Assembly (NCBI GenBank): GCA_903838125.1 | Contig: CAILXF010000060.1 | Location: 1-43,079 of the forward strand | Reading direction: 5' to 3' | DNA from: an uncultured Pseudomonadota bacterium | GTDB lineage: Bacteria > Pseudomonadota > Gammaproteobacteria > Burkholderiales > Methylophilaceae | Length of the DNA stretch: 43,079 nucleotides | Part shown: positions 18,485 through 34,371 of the stretch, piece by piece | Position numbering within the stretch: position 1 is the stretch's first letter | Layout of the letters: every line of letters starts with the position of its first letter | The notes under the pieces: model-generated | What the model was told of the DNA's origin: nothing | Seen by the model: only the letters and a program-made list of their open reading frames with translations | The model's database searches: none | Translations under genes and position numbers: made by a program

Positions 18485-18558
18485 CGCTGGTGTCAATGGT
18501 CTTCAATATGGATAGGCAATATTCACTACCATATGACTGTACGCTTCGGGTCGGCACA

Positions 18559-18677
18559 TGCCCTATAGCACCTAAATTTCCCCGCCTCAAAGCAGTCATT
18601 GACTCCTAATTGAGCTGACTTTCCACAAAGCTGACGTTCATAAATGACACTAGGGGTCATAAGCAGTCGTTCACTAT
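18559..18677. repeat. Dispersed repeat family A, copy 2 (long)
   Basis: About 119 bases aligning along their whole length with 24108-24226: cacctaaatttc, cgcctcaa, agtcattga, attgag, aagctga-gttcataaatg, then the gtcgtt end. It lies between the efflux operon and the convergent HD-GYP gene. Confidence 0.8.
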
Positions 18678-18706: not shown

Positions 18707-19747
18707 TTACTTGAGTTTGTAACCTTTGATGTTAAATAGCTTGATGCAAGCATCAACTACCGCTTTGTCGTAGAGGATTCCGGAACCGCGCTTTAGTTCT
18801 GACAAAGCAGACTCTATCCCTAAACCTCGACGATAAGGGCGATTAGTCGACATTGAATCAACCACATCTGCTACAGCCATTATTTTTCCACCTATTGAAA
18901 TTTCGTCACCCTTAAGTCCATGAGGGTAGCCGCTACCATCTAACCTTTCGTGATGCTCTAAGACCATCCGTGCCACAGGCCAAGGAAAAGAAATATCCTT
19001 AAGAACATTATAGCCAGCCTCAACATGTTCTTTAACTAATTCGAATTCTTTGATAGTTAATTTCGTTGGTTTAACTAGAATTTCAATAGGCACAATGATT
19101 TTACCAACATCATGTAAATATCCACCCACTTTAATCCCATCTTGAATGCTCTTTTCTACGCCAAGCTCAGAAGCGATAGCCTCAGACAGGTTCCCTACAG
19201 ACTGCTCATGGCCTGCTGTATAGAAGTCGCGCATTTCACCTAACTGCCTTGCTAATGTGATAGTCTCTAAAAGGCTACTTTCAAGTTTTTTGTTAGTTAT
19301 CTGCAACTCATATGCGCGTTTTTGTTTCTCTTCATTTTCAAAAGATAGTGTTTTATTGAATATCTCAAGGTTTCTCACAACCTCATCAAGTTGTAGACGC
19401 TCCAGTTCTCTATTTTTGAAAAGGGCCCTTAATCCATAATTGCCTACCAACATGAATATAGATATAACTAAACCAAAGATGGCATCACTCATGTTTGACG
19501 CTTGTCCATGTTCAAACAGTCGCCATAACGGAGCTAATCTTCTCTCCACCATAAAAATTAGACCAAGGCACACGCAAGCCCAAGCAAAACGGTAATTATT
19601 TTTGATTTCAATTATTTGGCGTGCAGCGATAATGGCTGCAATTACCTGCAAAAGCACAGATGCCAATAAGATGATAGTGAGAGAGATTTCCGATTGAATT
19701 TGATGCAATATGTTTGCAACCGATTCGGAATTTAAAATACTAGGCAC
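18707..19747 (-). CDS. Membrane HD-GYP c-di-GMP phosphodiesterase
   Basis: 346 residues. Three or so membrane segments (about 22-45, 52-68, 88-108) precede a linker with one unit of the NEEKQKRAYELQI type (138-150) and an HD-GYP domain: AGHE (178-181), HD at 212-213 in YLHDVGK, HH at 265-266, DGSGYP ending 275, ADVVDSM. All expected metal and GYP residues are present, so it should hydrolyse c-di-GMP. It starts at a GTG inside the end of the PAS-HD-GYP gene (8-base overlap, ggggga ribosome site), so it is translationally coupled. Very similar to that gene, including 55 identical bases: a local duplication. Confidence 0.92.
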   Translation of the reverse strand: MPSILNSESVANILHQIQSEISLTIILLASVLLQVIAAIIAARQIIEIKNNYRFAWACVCLGLIFMVERRLAPLWRLFEHGQASNMSDAIFGLVISIFMLVGNYGLRALFKNRELERLQLDEVVRNLEIFNKTLSFENEEKQKRAYELQITNKKLESSLLETITLARQLGEMRDFYTAGHEQSVGNLSEAIASELGVEKSIQDGIKVGGYLHDVGKIIVPIEILVKPTKLTIKEFELVKEHVEAGYNVLKDISFPWPVARMVLEHHERLDGSGYPHGLKGDEISIGGKIMAVADVVDSMSTNRPYRRGLGIESALSELKRGSGILYDKAVVDACIKLFNIKGYKLK

Positions 19748-20870
19748 CCCATTCCCCCGTTACGTTGGAGCTTTTAACTTCCATTATCTTTATACAAGCA
19801 TCAACTACCGCATTATCGTAGGGTACTCCAGAACCGCGCTTTAGTTCAGCTAATGCAGAGTCTATCCCTAAGCCTGATCGATACGGGCGATGTGTCGACA
19901 TTGCATCAACAACATCAGCTACAGCCATAATTCTCCCACCCATTGAAATTTCATCACCCTTGAGTCCCTTTGGGTAGCCACTGCCATCTAACCTTTCGTG
20001 ATGTTCTAAGACCACGTTTGCTACAGGCCATGGGAAAGAAATCTCATTAAGTAGGTAATAGCCTGCATCAACATGCTCTTTAACTAATTCAAATTCTTTT
20101 ATAGTTAATTTCGTTGGTTTAACTAGAATTTCAATAGGCACAATGATTTTACCAATATCATGTAGATAACCCGCTACACGTATACCATCTTGAAATGCTT
20201 GGTCAAAGCCAAGTTCATTTGCAATAGCCTCTGATAGCCTGCCTACAGACCTTTCGTGACCTGCTGTATAGGCATCGCGCATTTCACCTATCCGCGCTGC
20301 CAAGCTCACAGTTTCTAAAAGACTAACTTCTAGTCTTTTGGTAATCACTAACAGCTCAGCAGCTCGTTTAGCTTTCTCTTCATTTTGGAAGGCGAGTTCT
20401 TTATTGGCAATGACGAGCTCAGCAGCTCGTTTAGCTTTCTCTTCATTTTGGAAGGCGAGTTCTTTATTGGTTTCTATTAATACCCGTGCTTGTTCTTTTA
20501 TTTTAGTATTATCACGAGCAATCTTTGAAGCGCCAATTACTTTTCCGTTCGCATCAATAATAGGAGAAATCGTAGCTGACACATTAATGAGTCGACCATC
20601 TTTACATAGCCGTACAGTCTCAAAGTGAGGCACTCGCTTGCCTTGTAAGATTACCTTCAAAATATCTAACTCTTCCTTCAAACGTTCTGGTGGAATTAAA
20701 AGTTCTATTGATTGTCCGATAGCTTCTTCAGCAGAGTACCCGAATATATTTTCAGCACCCTTATTCCAGGTGAGAATAATCCCATTTAAATCCATTCCAA
20801 TAATGGCATCTTCAGATGCATCTATGATGGAAGTAAGTAGATTGTATTTACTCAGCGGAGTAGCGGTCAT
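19740..20870 (-). CDS. PAS-HD-GYP c-di-GMP phosphodiesterase
   Basis: 376 residues, cytosolic. PAS sensor (about 10-125, with GMDLNGIILTWNKGAENIFGY and the PAC-like tail IGASKIARDNT), a linker with two tandem 21-residue copies of NKELAFQNEEKAKRAAELVIA (about 135-176), then HD-GYP: AGHE, HD at 237-238 in YLHDIGK, HH at 290-291, GYP at 298-300. It lies between an alanine-rich gene (23-base overlap upstream) and the membrane HD-GYP gene (8-base overlap downstream), forming a compact three-gene operon. The ligand of the PAS domain cannot be told. Confidence 0.93.
   Translation of the reverse strand: MTATPLSKYNLLTSIIDASEDAIIGMDLNGIILTWNKGAENIFGYSAEEAIGQSIELLIPPERLKEELDILKVILQGKRVPHFETVRLCKDGRLINVSATISPIIDANGKVIGASKIARDNTKIKEQARVLIETNKELAFQNEEKAKRAAELVIANKELAFQNEEKAKRAAELLVITKRLEVSLLETVSLAARIGEMRDAYTAGHERSVGRLSEAIANELGFDQAFQDGIRVAGYLHDIGKIIVPIEILVKPTKLTIKEFELVKEHVDAGYYLLNEISFPWPVANVVLEHHERLDGSGYPKGLKGDEISMGGRIMAVADVVDAMSTHRPYRSGLGIDSALAELKRGSGVPYDNAVVDACIKIMEVKSSNVTGEWGA
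20353..20470 (-). repeat. 63-bp tandem repeat in the HD-GYP linker
   Basis: Two nearly identical copies with a 63-base period encode a 21-residue coiled-coil unit. The period keeps the reading frame and three heptads, so copy-number change would alter linker length without a frameshift. Confidence 0.9.
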
Positions 20871-21617: not shown

Positions 21618-23381
21618 TTATTTTAAAATCTGATCTGGATCAATAAATCTAACGATATTGCGCCCATCGGCTTTTGCCTGAAACATCGCCGAATCAGCCC
21701 ATTTGACTAGGTCTTCTTGCCCCGCCTGATGATTTAAGAAAAGCACCACGCCAATGCTAGCCGTGCATTTATGCTTGACACTCTTATCTGGTTGCCCAAG
21801 ATGCTTGGTATGTAAGTGATAAGGCTCACTTAATACCAAACGGATTTTTTCTGCGATTGCTTCCGCTTCAACCCTTGATTTCACTTTATCCTTATTTAAC
21901 TCTCTAATCATGACTACAAACTCATCCCCACCGAATCGACCGAGCGTGTCCATTTCACGCACGCACCCTTTCAACCTTTCAGCCACCTCTATCAGGAGTA
22001 GATCACCCACATCATGACCATGGGTGTCATTAAGCGGCTTGAAGTTATCCAAGTCTAGGAACATCAGCGCACCATACAAACCGCTTCGTTTGCTTGAAGC
22101 CATTGCCTGATTCATTCGGTCATAAAAAAGTCGGCGGTTGGGGAGTTTTGTCAGACTGTCATAGAAGGCCAACTGGTGAATCATTCCCTCATGCTTAATT
22201 CGAGCTGTAATGTCCTCCACCATGCAGAGGTGGCGATTGTGGCTGCCATCAGCTTCCTTAATCGGTGCAATTGTCATGCTAACCCAAACGAAAGAACCAT
22301 CTGGACGAATATAGCGTTTACTCATGTTGAACCCTGGTACTTCACCTTTATTCAACCGAGCCATGTTGTCGAGGTCATCTTGAACGTCATCAGGATGTGT
22401 AATGGTCATCCAGTTAATACAAATCAACTCCTCCTTTGTTCTTCCTGTTATGTCAGCAAACTTTGGATTGATTTCATAAATCTTTCCATTGAACGAATCA
22501 ATCAGGGCAACACCAATTGGAACCTTTTCGAAAATTGCTCTAAATCGCTCGCGGCTCTCCTCTAAAGACTTAGTACGTTCTGCAACAATTTCTTCAAGAT
22601 GGTCACGATAACGAATTAACTCCTGTTCGTTTTTTTTTATTTGGGTCACATCGCGGCCAGTAACAACCGATCCCACAATTTTTCCATTCCTATCTCGGAT
22701 TGGTGCAAAGCTATAGCTTCCAATCCAAGTCTCTCCTGTAGACTTTAACTGCAATATATACTCAGACCCTACGGCAGATTCTCCTCTAAGGGCTCTGGCG
22801 ACAACCCAATCTTCAAGAGGTACCGGTTCTCCGCCAGTCGTGAGAATATCAAGAATAGCCGCATATTTGTCTGAGTGATTGAGGCATTCCTCTTTATTTT
22901 TGAATCTATGAAATGTCGCAAAGGCCTTATTAAAGTTAACGAATGTGCCTTTTGCGTCTGATATAAACACTGCATCTACAATGCTTTCCAGCACAGCATC
23001 CAGCTTTATGTTGGTTGAGAAAAGGTATGACTGCAAAATACTTTCTCTGGCCATTCTCGCTAGGTACGTTGCGATTGTTGACGCTGAGATTGCTGCAAGA
23101 ATGTCCATAAGCATATAACCCAACCGCAACTCATAAAAATTAATTGCTAGTACTTGAAGTGCTATCGATATAAGGAAAGCTTGGGCAGTGTACAAAAGTT
23201 TTTTGCAGTTGAAAGCGATAGCGGCAAGTGGGAATACATGAAGCACATTCAGTCGGACGTCAGCCCCCATGAACCAATCCAAGATGGAAATTAACACAAT
23301 CGCAACTAAACCAAATGCAAACACCTTATTGTCATTAGGTGCCTCAGGGTTTGGTAAGTATTTGATTAAAAGTTTTATCAT
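21618..23381 (-). CDS. Membrane PAS-PAS-GGDEF diguanylate cyclase
   Basis: 587 residues from the ATG at 23381, chosen for its ggga site 8 bases upstream (a TTG at 23420 would add 13). About four membrane helices in the first 115 residues, two PAS domains (about 120-240 and 285-400, the second with GRTKEELICINWMTITHPDD), then a GGDEF domain. The active-site GGDEF is intact at residues 484-488 (bases 21918-21932). RxxD five residues before it (REMD) is a c-di-GMP inhibitory I-site. It should make c-di-GMP with product inhibition, opposing the HD-GYP enzymes nearby. No EAL domain. Confidence 0.93.
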   Translation of the reverse strand: MIKLLIKYLPNPEAPNDNKVFAFGLVAIVLISILDWFMGADVRLNVLHVFPLAAIAFNCKKLLYTAQAFLISIALQVLAINFYELRLGYMLMDILAAISASTIATYLARMARESILQSYLFSTNIKLDAVLESIVDAVFISDAKGTFVNFNKAFATFHRFKNKEECLNHSDKYAAILDILTTGGEPVPLEDWVVARALRGESAVGSEYILQLKSTGETWIGSYSFAPIRDRNGKIVGSVVTGRDVTQIKKNEQELIRYRDHLEEIVAERTKSLEESRERFRAIFEKVPIGVALIDSFNGKIYEINPKFADITGRTKEELICINWMTITHPDDVQDDLDNMARLNKGEVPGFNMSKRYIRPDGSFVWVSMTIAPIKEADGSHNRHLCMVEDITARIKHEGMIHQLAFYDSLTKLPNRRLFYDRMNQAMASSKRSGLYGALMFLDLDNFKPLNDTHGHDVGDLLLIEVAERLKGCVREMDTLGRFGGDEFVVMIRELNKDKVKSRVEAEAIAEKIRLVLSEPYHLHTKHLGQPDKSVKHKCTASIGVVLFLNHQAGQEDLVKWADSAMFQAKADGRNIVRFIDPDQILK

Positions 23382-23794
23382 AGCGATGTTCCCATAATGC
23401 TTAACTATTTTTAGCAACAAGTATTACAAACGAGCACTATCTAATATAGTGGCTTTAAATGAATGTTACTGATTAAGAATTCTGTGGAGATACGTGGTCT
23501 GCTGAGCCAAAATTGGCCATACTCATTTCTATAAAATCATTTAACTTTATTCTTAATTAGAAATCTCTACGTGCGGATACTTAGTTCGCATAAATTCGTA
23601 AAAAATCAGCACTAAAGTTAAAGTGAAAGAATTTAAAAGTGGTTTGTAGTTCTAGCAGCAAGGGGTCGTAAGTATACAAATTACGTGATTGCTTTAGGGT
23701 AGCTAGCCTTTAGGCTGAGTATGTGCTTACCCGTATATGTAATTCATAACCCTTAGACTATATTGGTCAAAATTAGAATTTTGGGATAGATGAA
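23382..23794. other. Intergenic region, no gene seen
   Basis: AT-rich, about 410 bases between the divergent GGDEF gene and a small hypothetical gene, so it must hold promoters for both. Short inverted matches (gagatacgtg near 23484 and ctctacgtg near 23566) are visible, but no clear operator, RNA or ORF. Confidence 0.4.
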
Positions 23795-24055: not shown

Positions 24056-24107
24056 TAATGCGAGATTATGTTTAATGAATTAAGGAAGTCGACATATGGG
24101 TTTGCAC

Positions 24108-24226
24108 TTGCTCTATGACACCTAAATTTCACCGCCTCAATGGAGTCATTGATCCCAATTGAGTTGAGTTGCCAAAAAGCTGAAGTTCATAAATGACACT
24201 AAGAAACAGAAGCCGTCGTTGATGCA
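24108..24226. repeat. Dispersed repeat family A, copy 3 (long)
   Basis: Aligns end to end with 18559-18677 and carries the same ttcataaatgacacta core as 13039-13085. Confidence 0.8.
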
Positions 24227-24307: not shown

Positions 24308-26065
24308 ATGAGCTTAACCTCCCCTGCTGAATTTACCCTCGGTCAGTTTCAGTACATTCTCGATCAACTTCCCCAGCATATTTTTTGGAAGGATAAAGAG
24401 TCACGCTATTTAGGTTGCAATCAGTCATTTGCTCAAGATGCTGGATTAACAAATCCAGCTGAAATTGTTGGCAAAACGGATTTTGATCTATCATGGGCAT
24501 CAAGTGCCACTGAATTGCATGGGCAAGACCAGGAAATCATTGCTACTGGTCTTCCATTTATTTCAGATGAAGAGCTGCTGAATGATAGTCATGGTCCTAA
24601 ATTTTGGCTAAATAAGAAAAAATTTCCTATCCGCAATCAACAAGGTGAGCCGATTGGCATCCTTGGTATTTATGAAGATATTTCTACGCTCAGGCGAAGC
24701 CAGATTAAGGAAGTAAAAGTAAGTCGTGCATTTGATTTGTTAATCAACGCAAATCAAGCGATGGTTCTAGCGCAAGATGAAAACTCTCTATTTGTAAATG
24801 TATGTCGCTTAGCTATTAAAGTTGGATACATCATGGCGTGGGTTGGTTTAGCTAATTCTGATGAGCAGAAATCTGTTAGCCCAGTTGCTCACGCTGGGGC
24901 CGTTGATGGTTACCTAAAGAACATTAAGATTAGCTGGGGCAATGATGAGTATGGCAAAGGGCCTACCGGCACATCTATTCGTGAAGTCCGAACGGTTGTT
25001 AATCAAAACTTTCTAACTAATCCTGCCATGCTCCCATGGCGAGATTCAGCAATAAAAATTGGCTATCAAGCAAATATTGCGCTTCCTATTATTTATCCGG
25101 AAGTGGGAGCAATTGCCGCTCTGACAATTTATGCGATAGAGCCGAACTCATTTAATGCAGAAGAGGTTGCATTGCTAGAGGAATTAGCAAAGCTATTAGC
25201 ATTTGGAATTTCTGCTGTTCGTGGTCGAGAGAAATTACTTTTTCAGAACGAAGAAAAAGCTAAGCGCTTAGCCGAATTAGTAATTGCCAACGAAGAAAAA
25301 GCTAAACGCCTAGCCGAATTAGTAATTGCCAACGAAGAAAAAGCTAAGCGGGTAGCGGAGCTAATAATTGCCAATGAAGAGAAGGTGAAAAGGGCTGCAG
25401 AGCTCGTGATAAGCATTAGGGCTACGCATCAAGCTGAAGATAAAATGCTAGCTAGCTTAACTTCATTATCTTTAGCCCGTGATAATGAAACAGGTAACCA
25501 TGTCATCAGAACGCAGATTTATGTAAGAGCCCTTGCCGCTCGGTTGCTAAAAATGGGTAAATACCTAGATCAAATTAATGAGGAATATATTGACCTAGTG
25601 TTTAAAGCCGCTCCTTTACACGATATTGGTAAGGTTGGTATTCCGGATTTAATTTTGAGAAAACCTGGAAAACTGAATGATGAAGAGTGGCTCGTTATGC
25701 AGACACACACCACGATTGGTGAATCTGTATTGTCTGCAGCTCATCTGGAATCTGAGGATGAAAATACTGTGATTGACATAGCCATTAAGATCGCTGGCGG
25801 TCATCATGAGCATTGGGATGGAACGGGCTACCCTAGAGGCTTGAAAAGTGAGTCCATTCCATTGGCCGCAAGGATCATGTCTGTTGCTGACGTGTACGAT
25901 GCCCTAGTGAGTAAGCGGGTTTATAAAGGCGAATGGACTCACGAGCAAGCGGTTAAAGAGATCATCCTTAAGAGTGGCACTCAGTTTGATCCCGTCATCG
26001 TGGATGCTTTTGCTCTAGAAGAGGGTACTTTCCATGAAATTTCTCAGCAGTACCACGATGCTTAG
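24308..26065 (+). CDS. PAS-GAF-HD-GYP c-di-GMP phosphodiesterase
   Basis: 585 residues, cytosolic. PAS (about 10-130, FWKDKESRYLGCNQSFAQDAG), GAF (about 145-305), a linker made of four tandem 14-residue units NEEKAKRLAELVIA (from residue 314), then an HD-GYP domain of the RpfG-like subtype: HD at 438-439 (HDIGKVGIPD), HH at 499-500, GYP at 507-509, SVADVYDAL. Ribosome site taggata before the ATG. This HD-GYP is more distant from the other three than they are from each other, although the linker unit is shared, suggesting domain shuffling. All catalytic residues look intact. Confidence 0.93.
   Translation: MSLTSPAEFTLGQFQYILDQLPQHIFWKDKESRYLGCNQSFAQDAGLTNPAEIVGKTDFDLSWASSATELHGQDQEIIATGLPFISDEELLNDSHGPKFWLNKKKFPIRNQQGEPIGILGIYEDISTLRRSQIKEVKVSRAFDLLINANQAMVLAQDENSLFVNVCRLAIKVGYIMAWVGLANSDEQKSVSPVAHAGAVDGYLKNIKISWGNDEYGKGPTGTSIREVRTVVNQNFLTNPAMLPWRDSAIKIGYQANIALPIIYPEVGAIAALTIYAIEPNSFNAEEVALLEELAKLLAFGISAVRGREKLLFQNEEKAKRLAELVIANEEKAKRLAELVIANEEKAKRVAELIIANEEKVKRAAELVISIRATHQAEDKMLASLTSLSLARDNETGNHVIRTQIYVRALAARLLKMGKYLDQINEEYIDLVFKAAPLHDIGKVGIPDLILRKPGKLNDEEWLVMQTHTTIGESVLSAAHLESEDENTVIDIAIKIAGGHHEHWDGTGYPRGLKSESIPLAARIMSVADVYDALVSKRVYKGEWTHEQAVKEIILKSGTQFDPVIVDAFALEEGTFHEISQQYHDA
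25247..25414 (+). repeat. Four-copy 42-bp tandem repeat in HD-GYP linker
   Basis: Copies start at 25247, 25289, 25331 and 25373. The first two are almost identical in DNA and the last is the most diverged. Each encodes two heptads. Confidence 0.92.
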
Positions 26066-26071
26066 CTTCTA

Positions 26072-26145
26072 GTCAATGACTGCTATGGGTTGGAAGTACC
26101 AAAACTAAACGACTGCTTTTAGGTAGTTTAACTCCACAGACCGCT
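26072..26145. repeat. Dispersed repeat family B, copy 1
   Basis: gactgctatgggttggaagt then a second half gactgctttt. It shares the atgggtYggaag core with 28044-28107, 28918-28975 and 30484-30545. Confidence 0.65.
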
Positions 26146-26691: not shown

Positions 26692-27192
26692 TTATTGAAT
26701 GCTCTTCTTAATTCTTGCTGCCCTTGCAGTATCAGACGCTAAATTGGCCAACTTGACGGCTTCAGAAGCAGCTTCAGTTGCAACCCTTGTAGCTTCAGAT
26801 GCCTCTACAGAAGCTTTTAGCGAGGCCTCTTCTGCTTGGTGCGCCACAGCTGATGCTGCCGCTGCCGCTGCCGCTGCTGCTGCTGCCGCTGCCTCAATAG
26901 CTGCCTCGGCAGCTGCAGATGCAGCATCTGCCGCAGCATCTGCCACCTTTAAGATAAGTACATTTGAAGCTTCAGTAGCTGCTATGGATGCACTTTTAGC
27001 AGCAGCCAAAGCATAAGTAGCCCCTTTAGCGGAGCGTTTAGCCGATTCTGAGGCATGCAATGTTAGGTCTTTAAGGGATGATAGTGAAGAAATGTAGCGC
27101 TTGTTAATGTTTACGTAACCTTGTCGAAGCGTAGATAGCTCGGTTTCAAAGGCATCCATTTTTAAATATATTTGTTTAATATCATCAGTCAT
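26692..27192 (-). CDS. Polyalanine-containing coiled-coil protein
   Basis: 166 residues from the ATG at 27192, chosen for the gtgagg site 6-7 bases upstream (a GTG at 27204 is possible). Not recognised. It begins with a helical segment (IKQIYLKMDAFETELSTLRQGYVNINKRY), then an alanine-rich rod of AAxxA(S/E)A units including 13 consecutive alanines, then a basic end (ARAARIKKS). No signal peptide. It resembles in style, but not clearly in sequence, the alanine-rich protein at 20.8-21.3 kb. Phasin-like, H1-like or signalling scaffold roles are all possible. Confidence 0.6.
   Translation of the reverse strand: MTDDIKQIYLKMDAFETELSTLRQGYVNINKRYISSLSSLKDLTLHASESAKRSAKGATYALAAAKSASIAATEASNVLILKVADAAADAASAAAEAAIEAAAAAAAAAAAAASAVAHQAEEASLKASVEASEATRVATEAASEAVKLANLASDTARAARIKKSIQ
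26855..26893 (-). repeat. GCN trinucleotide tract (13 alanine codons)
   Basis: Uninterrupted gct/gcc run on the plus strand. It encodes polyalanine in the minus-strand gene and is in-frame variable by nature. Confidence 0.95.
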
Positions 27193-27233
27193 TGCACGCC
27201 TCACTTATTAAGAACCAATTAACCTAATCGCCT

Positions 27234-28043: not shown

Positions 28044-28107
28044 GCGAATGTCTCCTATGGGTCGGAAGCGCCGAAATTCAAAGTCTGCTTTAGGGCAGTT
28101 CTGTCAC
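28044..28107. repeat. Dispersed repeat family B, copy 2
   Basis: gaatgtctcctatgggtcgg followed by aagcgccgaa and a second half gtctgctttagggcagtt. Its first 20 bases are identical to the copy at 30484. Confidence 0.8.
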
Positions 28108-28233: not shown

Positions 28234-28638
28234 TTAGTATGCGACCTGATCAACTAATGCCATATGGGCTATATAACCTGAGCGTGTTTCACCTGCTGAT
28301 TTTGCCTTCGAATCTAATCTAGCTAACACTCTTTTTGGCAAACTTATATTTACTCTTTCTATATCGTCCGATAAAAGAGCGGGATCAATTTCAACAATTG
28401 CCCAAATCCAATTTCTGAATTCTGGATCATTTTGTAGTGACGTAATTGAGCTTGGTTTTGGAACAACGGAACCTTCATCAAGTGCTGTTTCAATCCATAA
28501 CTCAATCGCATCTTTTGCATTTTCTATCGCCTCATCAATACCGCTATCTGCAGCAGAGAAACAACCTGGCAAGTCAGGTACAACAACTCCCCAAGCGATA
28601 CTATCGTTACCGGCTTCTATTGCTATTGGATATTTCAT
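28234..28638 (-). CDS. hicB: HicB-family antitoxin
   Basis: 134 residues. The N-terminal HicB-like domain (MKYPIAIEAGN...VVPDLPGCFSAADSGIDEAIENAKDAIELWIE) is followed by a C-terminal ribbon-helix-helix DNA-binding part (RVNISLPKRVLARLDSKAKSAGETRSGYI). It would neutralise HicA and autorepress the operon. Ribosome site ggagcg before the ATG, within the gap after hicA. The partner toxin gene just upstream has an in-frame stop, so this may be an orphaned or immunity-like antitoxin. Confidence 0.92.
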   Translation of the reverse strand: MKYPIAIEAGNDSIAWGVVVPDLPGCFSAADSGIDEAIENAKDAIELWIETALDEGSVVPKPSSITSLQNDPEFRNWIWAIVEIDPALLSDDIERVNISLPKRVLARLDSKAKSAGETRSGYIAHMALVDQVAY

Positions 28639-28831: not shown

Positions 28832-29303
28832 GAGTTAATTAAACACACCATACACACAAAATCAAATTATGATTAATTTTGACGAAAGTTAATTTTCTAA
28901 TTCGTCTTTTAATAGCATGACCGTCTGCAATGGGTCGGAAGCCCCGAACTTCAGAGTCTGCTTTAAGGCAGATCCAATTTACTTATCCCCTTACCTGCAA
29001 AATAGTTTGCTATAAAGAAGACGGATGTAAATTGGACTTCGGGCCAACAGCAGACGTTGGCATATTAAAATTAATTAAATACCCTCATAAGTCAATAAAC
29101 TTTCTCATATTAAGGTATATACTCAAGGTGCTATCTTTTTATTATCATTGTTATCAAATTGATGATATTTTTGTTTTACCTGGATCAATACCAAGATATA
29201 AAACAAAGTACATTGAGTGCTCCTTGCTCAAATAAGAAGATGCTTTAACAAGAGTAATTGTTAACTCATAGAAGTAATACTTAAAAGTGCTTTAGGAGAA
29301 ATA
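28832..29303. other. Intergenic region with repeats, no convincing gene
   Basis: About 470 bases upstream of the ETR1-like gene. It contains the family B copy at 28918-28975 and a short related element near 29034-29055 (cttcgggccaacagcagacg). An open frame of about 100 codons from 28930 starts inside the repeat, lacks a ribosome site and looks accidental. A good taggaga ribosome site lies at the right edge for the next gene. Confidence 0.55.
28918..28975. repeat. Dispersed repeat family B, copy 3
   Basis: gcaatgggtcggaagccccg then agagtctgctttaaggcaga. It aligns with the copies at 28044 and 30484. Confidence 0.78.
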
Positions 29304-30443
29304 ATGCAAATTGTTTCCAATTTAGTTAACACCGGCACCCTTCTACCGCATGGCTTCTGTATAAACTGGACGCCAGTCTTGCTTTGGTTGTACGTCATTT
29401 CAGATGCGCTTATCGTATTAGCTTACTACTCGATTCCCTTCACCTTAATTTATTTTGTAAGTCACAGAAAAGATCTCGCCTTTAGCAAGATTTTTATCAT
29501 GTTTGGCGCATTTATCCTTGCCTGCGGCACCACCCATCTGCTAGGCATTATCACTTTATGGCACCCTATTTACTGGATAGATGCTGGCATGAAAGCTTTT
29601 ACTGCGATGATTTCATGCATCACCGCCATTACTTTGATCGTTCTAATGCCCAAAGCTTTAAAATTACCTTCTCCCCAGCAATTGGATGAAGAGGTTGAAA
29701 GACGCTTAAATACGTATGACGTTTTGGAAAAAACCCAAGCGGCTCTTGTTGAATCCAGTCTTGTTCTTGAAGATCGTATCAAAGAGCGTACCAATGAATT
29801 AATCTTTCAAAATGAAGAGAAAGAAAAACGTGCAGCAGAGCTCGTCATCATCAACACGCAGTTAAAAGGCTCACTAATGAAGACGGTAGAAGTTGCAATG
29901 AAGTTGAGTGAAATGCGTGACCCATATACGGCCGGGCATGAAAAACGTGTTGCTGAAATAGCGGTGGCTATTAGTGCTGAACTTGGCTTCGATACAGAAT
30001 GTCAACAAGGCATGCGTGTAGCTGGTTATCTACATGACATCGGTAAAATTATCATCCCTGCGGAAATTTTAGCTAAGCCCGGCAAGCTTAATGATATTGA
30101 GTACAGTCTGGTGAAATATCATGTTCAGGCAGGTTATGACGCAATTAAGGACGTAGACTTTCCGTGGCCTGTCGCGGAAGTAGTTTTTCAGCATCATGAG
30201 CGCCTCGATGGGACTGGATATCCACGCGGGCTTAAAGGCGAAGAAATTATCATAGAAGCGCGCATTCTATCAGTGGCTGATGTGGTTGAGTCGATGACAT
30301 CACATCGACCTTATCGCGCTGAGCTAGGTATAGAAAAGGCTTTAGCTGAAATTGAACGTGGCTCTGGAATCACTTATGATGCCACCGTGGTGGATGCCTG
30401 CATAAAGTTGTTTCGTGAAAATGGATTCAAGACAACCCAATAG
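29304..30443 (+). CDS. ETR1-like ethylene-binding-domain protein with HD-GYP output
   Basis: 379 residues. Residues about 24-118 form three membrane helices that match the ethylene-binding domain of plant ETR1 without gaps: D34, Y41, I44, P45, C74 and H78 correspond to ETR1 D25, Y32, I35, P36, C65 and H69 (constant offset 9). In ETR1 the last two bind the copper ion needed for ethylene. A coiled coil with one FQNEEKEKRAAELVI unit (168-182) leads to an HD-GYP domain: AGHE (210-213), HD at 244-245, HH at 297-298, GYP at 305-307, ADVVESM. Expected to be a membrane sensor that lowers c-di-GMP. Ethylene itself is not proven as ligand; ETR1-like N-termini are also known in other bacteria. Confidence 0.9.
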   Translation: MQIVSNLVNTGTLLPHGFCINWTPVLLWLYVISDALIVLAYYSIPFTLIYFVSHRKDLAFSKIFIMFGAFILACGTTHLLGIITLWHPIYWIDAGMKAFTAMISCITAITLIVLMPKALKLPSPQQLDEEVERRLNTYDVLEKTQAALVESSLVLEDRIKERTNELIFQNEEKEKRAAELVIINTQLKGSLMKTVEVAMKLSEMRDPYTAGHEKRVAEIAVAISAELGFDTECQQGMRVAGYLHDIGKIIIPAEILAKPGKLNDIEYSLVKYHVQAGYDAIKDVDFPWPVAEVVFQHHERLDGTGYPRGLKGEEIIIEARILSVADVVESMTSHRPYRAELGIEKALAEIERGSGITYDATVVDACIKLFRENGFKTTQ

Positions 30444-30483: not shown

Positions 30484-30545
30484 TGAATGTCTCCTATGGG
30501 TCGGAAGCACCAAAAACCAATGACTGTTTTAGCGAAGTTTCAACC
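30484..30545. repeat. Dispersed repeat family B, copy 4
   Basis: gaatgtctcctatgggtcgg followed by aagcaccaaa and a diverged second half gactgttttagcgaagtt. It follows the ETR1-like gene. Confidence 0.78.
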
Positions 30546-31017: not shown

Positions 31018-31581
31018 TTATGCGGTTTTAAACACTGCGCTCAAATTAGGAAATACTTTGGCTGTTACCCAGAAGCCAAGTAAATACATGGCAGTAAAAC
31101 CCGTAAAGTTTGGCATGTAGTTCCAGCCGTATTGCATAGTTTCTAATACCCCGCTATTTGGAAAGCGGCCTGAAAACAAATAGTAAGTTTGTGTAGAAAT
31201 CACAAAGGCAGCTATTGTAGAAGCAAGGCTAGCCAATGTAAATTTAAGCGCATTTAAGCTCTCTGTTTGCTTGCTTAGCCATAAGCCAGCAATCCACATC
31301 ACTGCGTAAGTTGGCAACATGCCCCAGTAGCCAATAGTTAAACAAAAAGCCTGTAGACTATCAATCGAGGCTGCACCAAAGTCGATGACTGTCGCAAGTA
31401 GCACAAAGAAAGCAAACCAAGAGGCTTTTCTTAAATACAAGCCCCCAATTAACAGTAAAGCCAAGCTTGCGTCCGGTAAAGCTACGCTCGTCATTACATG
31501 GCTGCCACGCGTAAGGAGCATTAAGAATGCTATTGAAGTTGCTATAACTAGTGTTTTCGATGTTAATTCTGATTTGTTCAT
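31018..31581 (-). CDS. btuM: BtuM-like cobalamin transporter (solitary ECF-type S component)
   Basis: 187 residues, about six hydrophobic segments. The features TRGSHVMTSVALPDASLAL (24-42) and a cysteine at position 80 (SLQAFCLTIGYWG) agree with BtuM, described in Thiobacillus denitrificans as an inner-membrane B12 transporter that uses Cys80 to bind and decyanate cobalamin. Its place downstream of a TonB receptor led by a cobalamin riboswitch supports this. No ECF ATPase is nearby, consistent with a solitary S component. The identification rests on motif and context, not a database search. Confidence 0.75.
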   Translation of the reverse strand: MNKSELTSKTLVIATSIAFLMLLTRGSHVMTSVALPDASLALLLIGGLYLRKASWFAFFVLLATVIDFGAASIDSLQAFCLTIGYWGMLPTYAVMWIAGLWLSKQTESLNALKFTLASLASTIAAFVISTQTYYLFSGRFPNSGVLETMQYGWNYMPNFTGFTAMYLLGFWVTAKVFPNLSAVFKTA

Positions 31582-31741
31582 GGCTTAGTCTTTCAAAAAG
31601 GCGCGCTTTAATAAACGAGCTTGTTCATATTTTTGTCATCATAACATTTTCAAACAATATCTATCCAAACAGCCAACTTATTTCTTATCCTCAGAAGAAA
31701 CAGGCAGTTATTTTATAAAAGATAATTGACTTTTAAAGCTA

Positions 31742-33853
31742 TCACTTAAAATTATATGTGAGGCTCAAGTACAAAGTTCTTGCATTTCCTGGGTAATAAT
31801 AATTAACACCACCATAGACTGTACCCATAGGTGAGTATTTCTTATCTAGCATATTCATACCTGTGAATGAAACAGTGATAGGTTTAAATTCCCATGCAGC
31901 TTTTAGATCTAATGTTGTATAAGACGCTAGCTTAGTATCTGTATTATAAAAATCTCCTGAAAAATAACGAGAACCAACGTAGTTTACTTGGGCAACATAT
32001 TTTCCATATTGATGTTGATCCCATAACAGTTGAGCAGATCCCATGTTTTCAGGAACGTTAGGAACAATATTCCCGGCATATAGCCCAGAAGTAAATTTCA
32101 CCTCTGTATAGCTGTAACTAAGTTTTGCTCTAAGGTTTTCTAGTATTTTATACGCTAGTTGTGCCTCTATACCTTTATGCGTTGTAGGGGCTAGGTTCAC
32201 ATTTGAATAAGAGTTTGGATCATATGCAATTTCGTTATCAATATCCATTCTATAAACAGATACTCTACTTTCAATTATTGTATCTTTGTAAGTTAGGCCT
32301 ACCTCGTTGTTATAGCTAGTTTGTGGCTTTAAAAAAGACCCGTAGAAAATAGTGTTCGCATTAACAGGATCAGAACCAAAAATTTCATCTAAATTGGAGA
32401 ATCTAAAACTAGTGCCACTTTTAAAATAAGAACCCCAATTTACATCATGATAATTAAGAGTTAGCTGATATGCATTTTTCGTAGATTTTTGATTGCCGCT
32501 CATGCTTGGGTTGCCATCGCCATATGGAGCGTTATAAGTTACACCTTGATATATGTAAGAGTATGGGGTAAAGCAATCTTGTAATGATGAGTAGTAACTA
32601 TAATAACAAAATGCATCTTGTTGGGCAGATTGCTTAATTTGCTCTGAACGCATACCGACAATTGCATCGAGTTTCTGAGTTATTGAAGTCGTATTTTGCA
32701 AATAAACAGATTGCGTTGTTTGATTTGCATTTGTTGAATAATTATCTGCTCCTGTGTTGCTAAGAATTCCAGTGGTTTGACCATTAAAATTTCCGTAGTA
32801 ATAATCGTAACCACCAATCATTACATTTTTATAATTGAAGGGATCGCTAGTCCACTTAAGTTTTGGCGTAAATCCATAGCTTGTAATTTCCCGATTCTTT
32901 TTGATATCGTATTGATCTGGATCAGTGAATTTTGTTTTTTCATATGAAAAAAGTAGTTCAGTGGATAGTTCCAGATTTTGGTTAAGTGCAACAGAGAATC
33001 CAGGTCTTATTTTTAAACCTTCTTTTGCTTGCCGCTGATTAAGATCTTTTGGACTAAAGGGGCGAGAGGTTATTGGGAAAATCTCGGAAGACCTTGGGTT
33101 TTGGGCGTAATCAGTTGCAGAAAGCACTCCTGGCAGCCCATTCTCGATATGGAAAACGGAGTAATCAATAAAGGTGTTCACTGAGTCCAAGTTATATCCA
33201 ATGCGACCACTCACTGAGTGCGAGGTTTCTGCAGAGTTTTCACGATAACCATTTTCATCAGAGGTATGAATGAAGGTATTAAAATAGCCATCATGATCAA
33301 GGGAGCCCGATAAATAACCATCAACACTTTTATATCCGTAGCTGCCAATCGTAGTTGTTAAAGAGGCGGCAGTTTTTCCTGATTTGTCTGTAATAATGTT
33401 AATTACGCCGCCAGTTGCACGGTCACCATACAGAATAGTTCCGTCACCTGATATGACTTCAATATGATCAATTGCTTTAACTGGAATAGATGCCCATTGA
33501 ATATTGCTTGAGTCGGGACTATTTAATCTCTGTCCGTTAACTAGTACCAGTGTGTTGCTAATGGCAGTGTCACCAAAACCTCTTATATCTACTGTTGTAT
33601 CGGTTCCACTATTGCCATGCAAACTTTGAATATTTATCCCAGCTAGCGTTCTTAAAAGATCTGGGATACTTACAGAGGGGGAGTTTTGTATCTCTTCGTG
33701 TGTAATAATTTTTACACTGGGATTCGAAGACAAATCTTCTTCAAATCTGGATGACGTAACAATTACATTGTCGGTATTAAGTTTAAAATCTTCGGCGAAT
33801 ACAGGCGCAGAGAGAAGCATGCCAATCAGGCTGGCAATGGTAGATCTTTTCAT
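31742..33853 (-). CDS. btuB: TonB-dependent vitamin B12 receptor (BtuB-like)
   Basis: 703 residues. Signal peptide (MKRSTIASLIGMLLSAPVFA), TonB box DNVIVTSSR soon after, plug domain (about 45-155, VDIRGFGDTAISNTLVLVNGQR, GDRATGGVINIITD), then a large beta-barrel ending in aromatic YNFK. A cobalamin riboswitch in its long leader and the BtuM-like gene downstream (160 bases) identify the ligand as cobalamin or a related corrinoid. The outer-membrane step would be followed by BtuM-driven inner-membrane uptake. Confidence 0.9.
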   Translation of the reverse strand: MKRSTIASLIGMLLSAPVFAEDFKLNTDNVIVTSSRFEEDLSSNPSVKIITHEEIQNSPSVSIPDLLRTLAGINIQSLHGNSGTDTTVDIRGFGDTAISNTLVLVNGQRLNSPDSSNIQWASIPVKAIDHIEVISGDGTILYGDRATGGVINIITDKSGKTAASLTTTIGSYGYKSVDGYLSGSLDHDGYFNTFIHTSDENGYRENSAETSHSVSGRIGYNLDSVNTFIDYSVFHIENGLPGVLSATDYAQNPRSSEIFPITSRPFSPKDLNQRQAKEGLKIRPGFSVALNQNLELSTELLFSYEKTKFTDPDQYDIKKNREITSYGFTPKLKWTSDPFNYKNVMIGGYDYYYGNFNGQTTGILSNTGADNYSTNANQTTQSVYLQNTTSITQKLDAIVGMRSEQIKQSAQQDAFCYYSYYSSLQDCFTPYSYIYQGVTYNAPYGDGNPSMSGNQKSTKNAYQLTLNYHDVNWGSYFKSGTSFRFSNLDEIFGSDPVNANTIFYGSFLKPQTSYNNEVGLTYKDTIIESRVSVYRMDIDNEIAYDPNSYSNVNLAPTTHKGIEAQLAYKILENLRAKLSYSYTEVKFTSGLYAGNIVPNVPENMGSAQLLWDQHQYGKYVAQVNYVGSRYFSGDFYNTDTKLASYTTLDLKAAWEFKPITVSFTGMNMLDKKYSPMGTVYGGVNYYYPGNARTLYLSLTYNFK

Positions 33854-33901
33854 GGTTATTTTCCCTTAATCTGCACGCGACCCCGCGAGTAGATTGTTTT
33901 T

Positions 33902-33921
33902 AGGCCTGTATGTTCAGGCCT
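33902..33921 (-). other. Hairpin in the btuB leader
   Basis: Perfect aggcctg/caggcct arms with a 6-base loop, about 50 bases before the btuB start and downstream of the riboswitch. No T run follows on the minus strand, so not an obvious terminator; it may be part of the expression platform. Confidence 0.45.
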
Positions 33922-34039
33922 TAGTTTTAAAGTTAGGGAATACAGCAACATGAAAATAAAATTGACTGCGCGGCCGACATGTCGACGCAAAAAGCGCTGC
34001 CTATATTTACCGTCACCCCGCGGTACTTCCTAGCGTATA

Positions 34040-34260
34040 TGTTGTGAGGCCGGTCTCCGGGCTTGTGAACGTTAGGTTTTGATGCCTAGTGTTTTGCGCC
34101 TTCCCATGTCTTGCCTTTTCTAGGCTTGGACTCAGTGGCATATTGCAAAACTACATTCACTTACCGTTGCGGGGGCAGCATAGGACTAGTTAATTTGAAT
34201 TAACGCACCTATTTCCCAGTTTCACCTTGTTTGTAGAAAACAAACTTGGCACCTGACAAC
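34040..34260 (-). promoter_or_regulatory. Cobalamin riboswitch
   Basis: On the minus strand the conserved elements appear in order: AGGTGCC, GGGAAATAGGTG, the B12 box GCCCCCGCAACGGTAAG, GCCACTG, TGGGAAGGC and CCCGGAGACCGGCCT. It should lower btuB (and btuM) expression when adenosylcobalamin is plentiful. It lies about 190 bases upstream of the btuB start. Confidence 0.95.
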
Positions 34261-34371
34261 AAGTCACAATTATAGCGGTTATTTTTTTATCAAATTGAAC
34301 TATTTTGTATTGAGGTTTGTACGGCACTCACTGCAATGTGTTGTAATACTTTTAAATATCGCGGTTAGCTA

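Follow-up and report, generated by a model that had tools for sequence, protein, structure and literature searches.

In the window (the whole 43,079-nt stretch of DNA that was analysed), one gene joins a membrane sensor of the plant ethylene receptor type to an HD-GYP domain. We read its product as a one-component copper/ethylene-type receptor that would control an HD-GYP phosphodiesterase and that would have arisen by gene fusion, and we put the probability of this reading at about 0.65. Direct coupling through the dimer linker is the best-supported mechanism. More specifically, the three transmembrane helices of the sensor would hold Cu(I) by way of C74 and H78, and this copper would bind ethylene or a small olefin much like it. 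Ligand binding would alter the packing of the dimer, and a coiled-coil linker would carry this change to the phosphodiesterase, whose rate of hydrolysis of a cyclic dinucleotide, most likely c-di-GMP, would change without a phosphorelay. Dimerisation, catalysis and the coupling of sensor to enzyme are predictions from the sequence of the window protein.

The gene starts with ATG, and its frame is intact over 379 codons (Table 1). Comparison with Pfam places an ethylene-binding domain (EBD; ETR1_N, PF25487) at residues 26-121, with an E-value of 1.1e-38 and 131.9 bits against a curated cut-off of 27, and an HD-GYP domain (HD_5) at residues 197-362, with an E-value of 1.6e-40 and a score far over the cut-off. 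At these profile scores, chance similarity is ruled out as the source of both matches. A preliminary description of this DNA had proposed an ETR1-like membrane domain with a complete HD-GYP domain in place of a histidine kinase, and had suggested an HMM comparison with the EBD as a check; the ETR1_N match is the outcome of that comparison, and both domains are borne out. The product gave no histidine kinase match in Pfam, which rules out a plant-type or kinase receptor identity. No PAS, GAF or other domain was found by Pfam between ETR1_N and HD_5 in the 379-residue protein, and the linker that separates them (residues 122-196) has the sequence of a likely coiled coil.

Table 1. The fused gene, its parts and neighbouring features, in window coordinates.
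Feature	Position	Strand	Basis or comment
HD-GYP gene	18707-19747	-	Pfam
HD-GYP gene with PAS domain	19740-20870	-	Pfam
PAS-GGDEF gene	21618-23420	-	Pfam
PAS-GAF-HD-GYP gene	24308-26065	+	Pfam
55-nt intergenic repeat copy, upstream of fused gene	28919-28973		Sequence comparison
Likely ribosome-binding site AGGAGA	29294-29299	+	Read from sequence
EBD-linker-HD-GYP protein gene, 379 aa	29304-30443	+	ORF reading, Pfam
Ethylene-binding domain (ETR1_N, residues 26-121)	29379-29666	+	Pfam; D34, Y41, I44, P45, I71, C74, H78, K97
Linker, residues 122-196, likely coiled coil	29667-29891	+	Between the two Pfam domains
One FQNEEKEKRAAEL linker motif copy, residues 168-180	29805-29843	+	Homology of the HD-GYP half begins there
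HD-GYP domain (HD_5, residues 197-362)	29892-30389	+	Pfam; H212, H244, D245, H273, H297, H298, D326
55-nt intergenic repeat copy, just downstream of fused gene	30485-30539		Sequence comparison

Alignment of the sensor half found all seven ethylene-binding residues of AtETR1 (D34, Y41, I44, P45, I71, C74 and H78 in the window protein); six of these had been named in the preliminary description, and I71 is additional. We take Y41, I44, P45 and I71 to be the counterparts of ETR1 Y32, I35, P36 and I62. By hydropathy, hydrophobic peaks fall into three groups with centres at residues 31-44, 66-76 and 103-112, as for three transmembrane helices. With the sensor half as query, tblastn against plasmids returned 19 records, Azospirillum brasilense included, and the window sensor is 52% identical, without gaps over residues 4-127, to a protein of A. 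brasilense Sp7. This Sp7 copy has 525 aa, the domains ETR1_N, PAS, HisKA and HATPase_c, and a 137-codon open frame directly after it. Size and layout, including the following frame, agree with AzoEtr1, which is described as a 525-aa protein of EBD-PAS-kinase layout with a response regulator gene as its likely partner (PMC11819568), and we regard the two as matching.

Saturable ethylene binding is reported for residues 1-130 of AzoEtr1, and its residues D35, C75, H79 and K98 are equated with AtETR1 D25, C65, H69 and K91 (PMC11819568). Window D34, C74, H78 and K97 align to these four Azospirillum residues. By way of this published correspondence (PMC11819568), the constant offset of 9 from ETR1 that had been claimed earlier holds at D34, C74 and H78; at K97 the offset is 6, which reflects a three-residue difference in the TM2-TM3 loop, after H78. 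AzoEtr1 differs from the window protein in its output: in place of an HD-GYP domain it has a PAS-histidine kinase, for which a response regulator is the likely partner (PMC11819568). SynEtr1/UirS of Synechocystis also has a membrane ethylene-binding domain, but is described as having its own kinase output with response regulators and as doubling as a light sensor (PMC5812497). The statement of the preliminary description that ETR1-like domains are known in other bacteria is supported.

In an alignment of 109 sensors, which takes in the Azospirillum one, all seven binding residues are kept in 76 and incomplete in 33, with the Cys kept in 106 and the His in 105. The window sensor is predicted to bind copper and ethylene. 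With copper still bound, its natural signal might not be ethylene but a different alkene, a different gas or the copper status of the cell; we consider this rather unlikely. Genomes with ETR1_N numbered 32/187 in the family, 27/399 in the order, 16/369 in the class and 29/398 in the phylum, 3/12 among those reached through loci, 10/149 in the phylum of a Planctomycetota genome, 17/277 in that of a Chlorobiaceae genome, 1/141 in that of an Anaerolineales genome and 0/2 in a two-genome phylum. These samples overlap, some genomes having been drawn more than once. The presence of the sensor in many bacteria, for example in the family and in the phyla of the Planctomycetota and Chlorobiaceae genomes, means that its signal may be broader than a plant hormone. 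Against this, the window sensor belongs with the 76 that keep all seven residues, its relative AzoEtr1 binds ethylene, and abiotic sources of ethylene exist, for example the photochemistry of dissolved organics (PMC11819568). A fused sensor need not remain functional, and the membrane domain could be a plain anchor or dimeriser without ligand control; with the seven ligand residues and K97 all kept, however, we find this quite improbable.

In the output half, alignment to PmGH shows the HD, HH and GYP motifs; K248 and the full GYP triad are present, as are seven of the eight metal ligands of PmGH (H189, H221, D222, H250, H276, H277 and D305). PmGH E185 is replaced by Y208, and the carboxylate of the trinuclear E/D-T-G group is therefore absent; D308 is replaced by E329, and PmGH K225 and D183 are kept. 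The ligand list and residue roles are those given for PmGH in PMC4159591, where HD-GYP domains are described as split quasi-equally into predicted bi- and trinuclear forms, a binuclear centre is predicted for the Y/F group, and the change of D308 to alanine is reported to cost activity like the loss of a ligand. The window domain is predicted to belong to this Y/F, binuclear group, in contrast to the trinuclear PmGH with its E185. Since Y208 takes the position of a metal ligand and E329 that of D308, activity cannot be assumed. By sequence, the best solved structure is V-cGAP3 (5z7c, E=1.1e-38), named a 3'3'-cGAMP phosphodiesterase, followed by PmGH (4mcw, E=1.9e-33); the HD-GYP domains of both align with that of the window protein. 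Its substrate would most likely be c-di-GMP, and possibly cGAMP.

These two substitutions and the rank of V-cGAP3 speak for an output that acts on 3',3'-cGAMP or pGpG, or that is nearly inactive, in which case c-di-GMP would not be controlled. Three V. cholerae HD-GYPs are reported to hydrolyse both nucleotides, and PmxA to prefer cGAMP (PMC8177086). We nevertheless judge such an output unlikely, as the Y/F form is a usual one under the quasi-equal split (PMC4159591), all seven common metal ligands are present, and the same window encodes three more HD-GYP proteins and a GGDEF protein.

At the DNA level, the two halves of the gene match different genes. Over nucleotides 1-335 the gene shares 83.6% identity with the EBD-kinase gene L181, and over nucleotides 497-1121 it shares 83.4% with the stand-alone HD-GYP gene L031; L181 and L031 both sit in one same-genus genome, G150, which we take to be the same as G1287 from identical match coordinates. 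Nucleotides 336-496 gave no DNA-level match to L181 or L031. L031 carries three copies of FQNEEKEKRAAEL spaced 63 nt apart, one of them with D in place of E; the motif also occurs in the EBD-kinase L056 of the same genome. In the EBD tree, the window protein groups with two same-genus EBD-kinases (support 0.934), and in the HD-GYP tree of 34 domains it groups with L031, L039 and two in-window paralogues (support 0.945), the direct pairing with L031 having a support of just 0.155. The same-genus EBD-PAS-histidine kinases L181 and L034 have sensors 85% identical in protein to that of the window, but their output is a kinase (L034 by Pfam, L181 by motif) where the window protein has HD-GYP. From the homology of the two halves we infer the route: in the simplest reading two existing genes were fused at a linker motif common to both, an EBD-PAS-histidine kinase gene supplying the sensor half and a stand-alone HD-GYP gene the output half.

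A common motif could also be the site of a misjoin, which would make the fused gene an assembly chimera of the two genes. The motif is repeated, with 94-96% identity over 50 nt to copies in the sister gene; contigs of the sister genome (G150) break inside EBD copies, and the fusion is known from one contig of a single MAG. After a misjoin, however, the remaining half of each gene should still be present, and the own assembly has neither a second EBD nor an L181-like kinase half (best 29%), an absence that is not decisive at 86% completeness; furthermore, the gene sits 29 kb into the 43-kb contig and contains the stretch at nucleotides 336-496 that matches neither L181 nor L031 in its DNA. We regard a chimera as very improbable.

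The linker motif is part of a 21-residue repeat (about VIANKELAFQNEEKEKRAAEL) found in the window at 29805-29843 and 20353-20470, as well as in L031, L039, L085 and others. Signalling proteins from several phyla, as judged by record title, carry the repeat in nearly identical form, with at most 12 matches per locus; the 251 matches under 71 ids include the window and one duplicate locus and come mostly from loci selected by FQNEEKEK, a biased set. No paper was found in a literature search for the motif NEEKEKRA. Recent cross-phylum spread of the linker DNA was rejected, since the 39-nt core is 69-92% identical outside the genus (among the copies compared, two per locus at most), a range that by our own estimate is roughly to be expected of a single protein motif whose synonymous sites vary freely. 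The sister genome seemingly has at least three sensor genes (L181/L184/L185/L186), one of them complete, with contigs ending inside others.

To gauge how rare the fusion of sensor and HD-GYP is, 115 distinct sensor frames were obtained, of which 8 are cut by the end of their stretch; four short ones were dropped and 111 scanned with Pfam. ETR1_N was found in 111, HisKA and HATPase_c in 60 each, Response_reg in 37, GGDEF in 33 and EAL in 23. Among the matches listed, HD_5 occurs in one of the 111 proteins, that of the window gene; the scan was made in two sets, the counts cover the 25 commonest of 30 and 31 families in them, and a lone HD match could hide in the first set. This gap is covered by a motif search over all 115 frames, which found HD-GYP in one, and a further 18 sensor frames (4 running off their stretch), from the phyla of the Anaerolineales and Chlorobiaceae genomes, had no HD-GYP motif. 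These counts leave out sub-cut-off Pfam matches missed by our own profile, a few contig-end fragments and a frameshifted copy in G061, and cyanobacteria are represented by plasmid records only. HD-GYP as the output of an ETR1-type sensor is thus very rare in the sample, and c-di-GMP output as such is common, via GGDEF and EAL. The same-family proteins L012 and L188 (EBD-PAS-GGDEF and EBD-PAS-GGDEF-EAL) carry the same kind of sensor on c-di-GMP enzymes; they differ in the output itself, GGDEF or GGDEF-EAL, and in the PAS domain in between, which the window protein lacks. The new part is the combination of sensor and HD-GYP, the sensor and c-di-GMP output being already known.

A pattern scan of contigs revealed no second fused copy matching both halves among the best 80 of 487 confirmed candidates, a set that records of the own genome may fall outside. 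Searching plasmids by tblastn with the full protein gave two records of at least 80% coverage and 30-32% identity, with starts at residues 45 and 68, neither of them among the 19 from the sensor-only search. In literature retrieved with ethylene terms and judged by titles and abstract starts, the fusion was not found; subscription reviews of non-plant receptors could list it.

Within 11 kb of the fused gene there are three more genes for HD-GYP proteins and one for a GGDEF protein. The HD-GYP domains of 18707-19747 and 19740-20870 are about 60% identical; these tandem, overlapping genes are 80% identical over 300 nt, and one has an N-terminal part that reads as hydrophobic and one a PAS domain. 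The PAS-GAF-HD-GYP protein has a linker with tandem 14-residue repeats (NEEKAKRLAELVIA) at 42-nt spacing. No convincing operon partner of the fused gene was seen within the window, and the sole close upstream frame on the same strand, at 28930-29235 and of 101 aa, gave no match in Pfam and partly coincides with an intergenic repeat. The preliminary description had located the novelty in both the output and the cluster setting: the output part stands, with the single HD_5 protein among the matches listed for 111; on the setting, the window offers the neighbouring HD-GYP and GGDEF genes and no convincing operon partner.

A same-genus protein (L258) has a hemerythrin domain joined to an HD-GYP domain of the window protein's group (Pfam), 68% identical to that of the window. 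It is a one-component HD-GYP protein, as is the Ferrovum hemerythrin-HD-GYP (Bhr-HD-GYP), given as a phosphodiesterase in PMC8846402; both differ in sensing through hemerythrin instead of a membrane sensor of the copper type. Other HD-GYP relatives carry receiver, PAS and GAF sequences, as judged by eye. Sensors in front of HD-GYP domains seem to be actively exchanged, with the fused gene as one result.

Several other features were recorded in the window. The 55-nt intergenic repeat has two copies (26074-26128 and 28046-28100) besides the two that flank the fused gene (Table 1), and similar copies lie directly past the stop of the EBD-kinase L056 and in L186. A second repeat pair (18548-18671 and 24098-24220, 82-84% identical) bounds the region of the tandem HD-GYP genes and the GGDEF gene. 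On the minus strand, 31018-34271 is probably a vitamin B12 uptake unit, in which a cobalamin riboswitch (34271-34031) precedes a TonB-dependent receptor, which resembles the B12 receptor family below the model cut-off, and a small membrane protein, weakly DUF6580-like. The same strand carries a HicB-like antitoxin gene (28234-28638), next to which no HicA partner was seen in a list of ORFs of at least 80 aa, which would miss a short one, and an alanine-rich frame of 170 aa (26692-27204) with no Pfam match, partly open on the opposite strand too.

The sign of the response can be approached through Azospirillum, where the receptor is a kinase, where ethylene is reported to lower c-di-GMP by an unknown pathway, and where ethylene and receptor disruption alike reduce biofilm (PMC11819568). 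The same biofilm effect of both, as reported there, fits ethylene turning the output off. By analogy, we lean slightly towards ethylene switching the window enzyme off, which would raise c-di-GMP. The earlier claim that sensing directly lowers c-di-GMP is not established, the receptor precedents in that account suggesting that ethylene may turn the output off, with the opposite sign.

Sensor and enzyme share one short chain without PAS or phosphorelay, and one purified protein could therefore test control of c-di-GMP turnover by an ethylene-binding domain; the direction of the ethylene effect could be read from the same single protein. With GGDEF in 33 of the 111 sensors, the question is wider than one gene. 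In a 2022 review of c-di-GMP inputs, the word ethylene is absent from the main text (PMC8846402). As a tentative proposal, to which we give somewhat less than even odds, the ethylene sensor of this family has switched on several occasions from phosphorelay to c-di-GMP, through the exchange of cassettes at coiled-coil linkers, with kinase, GGDEF, GGDEF-EAL and HD-GYP outputs. If this is true, the environment would act on c-di-GMP directly by way of ethylene or a similar gas, and enzymes of opposite action would share the same sensor.
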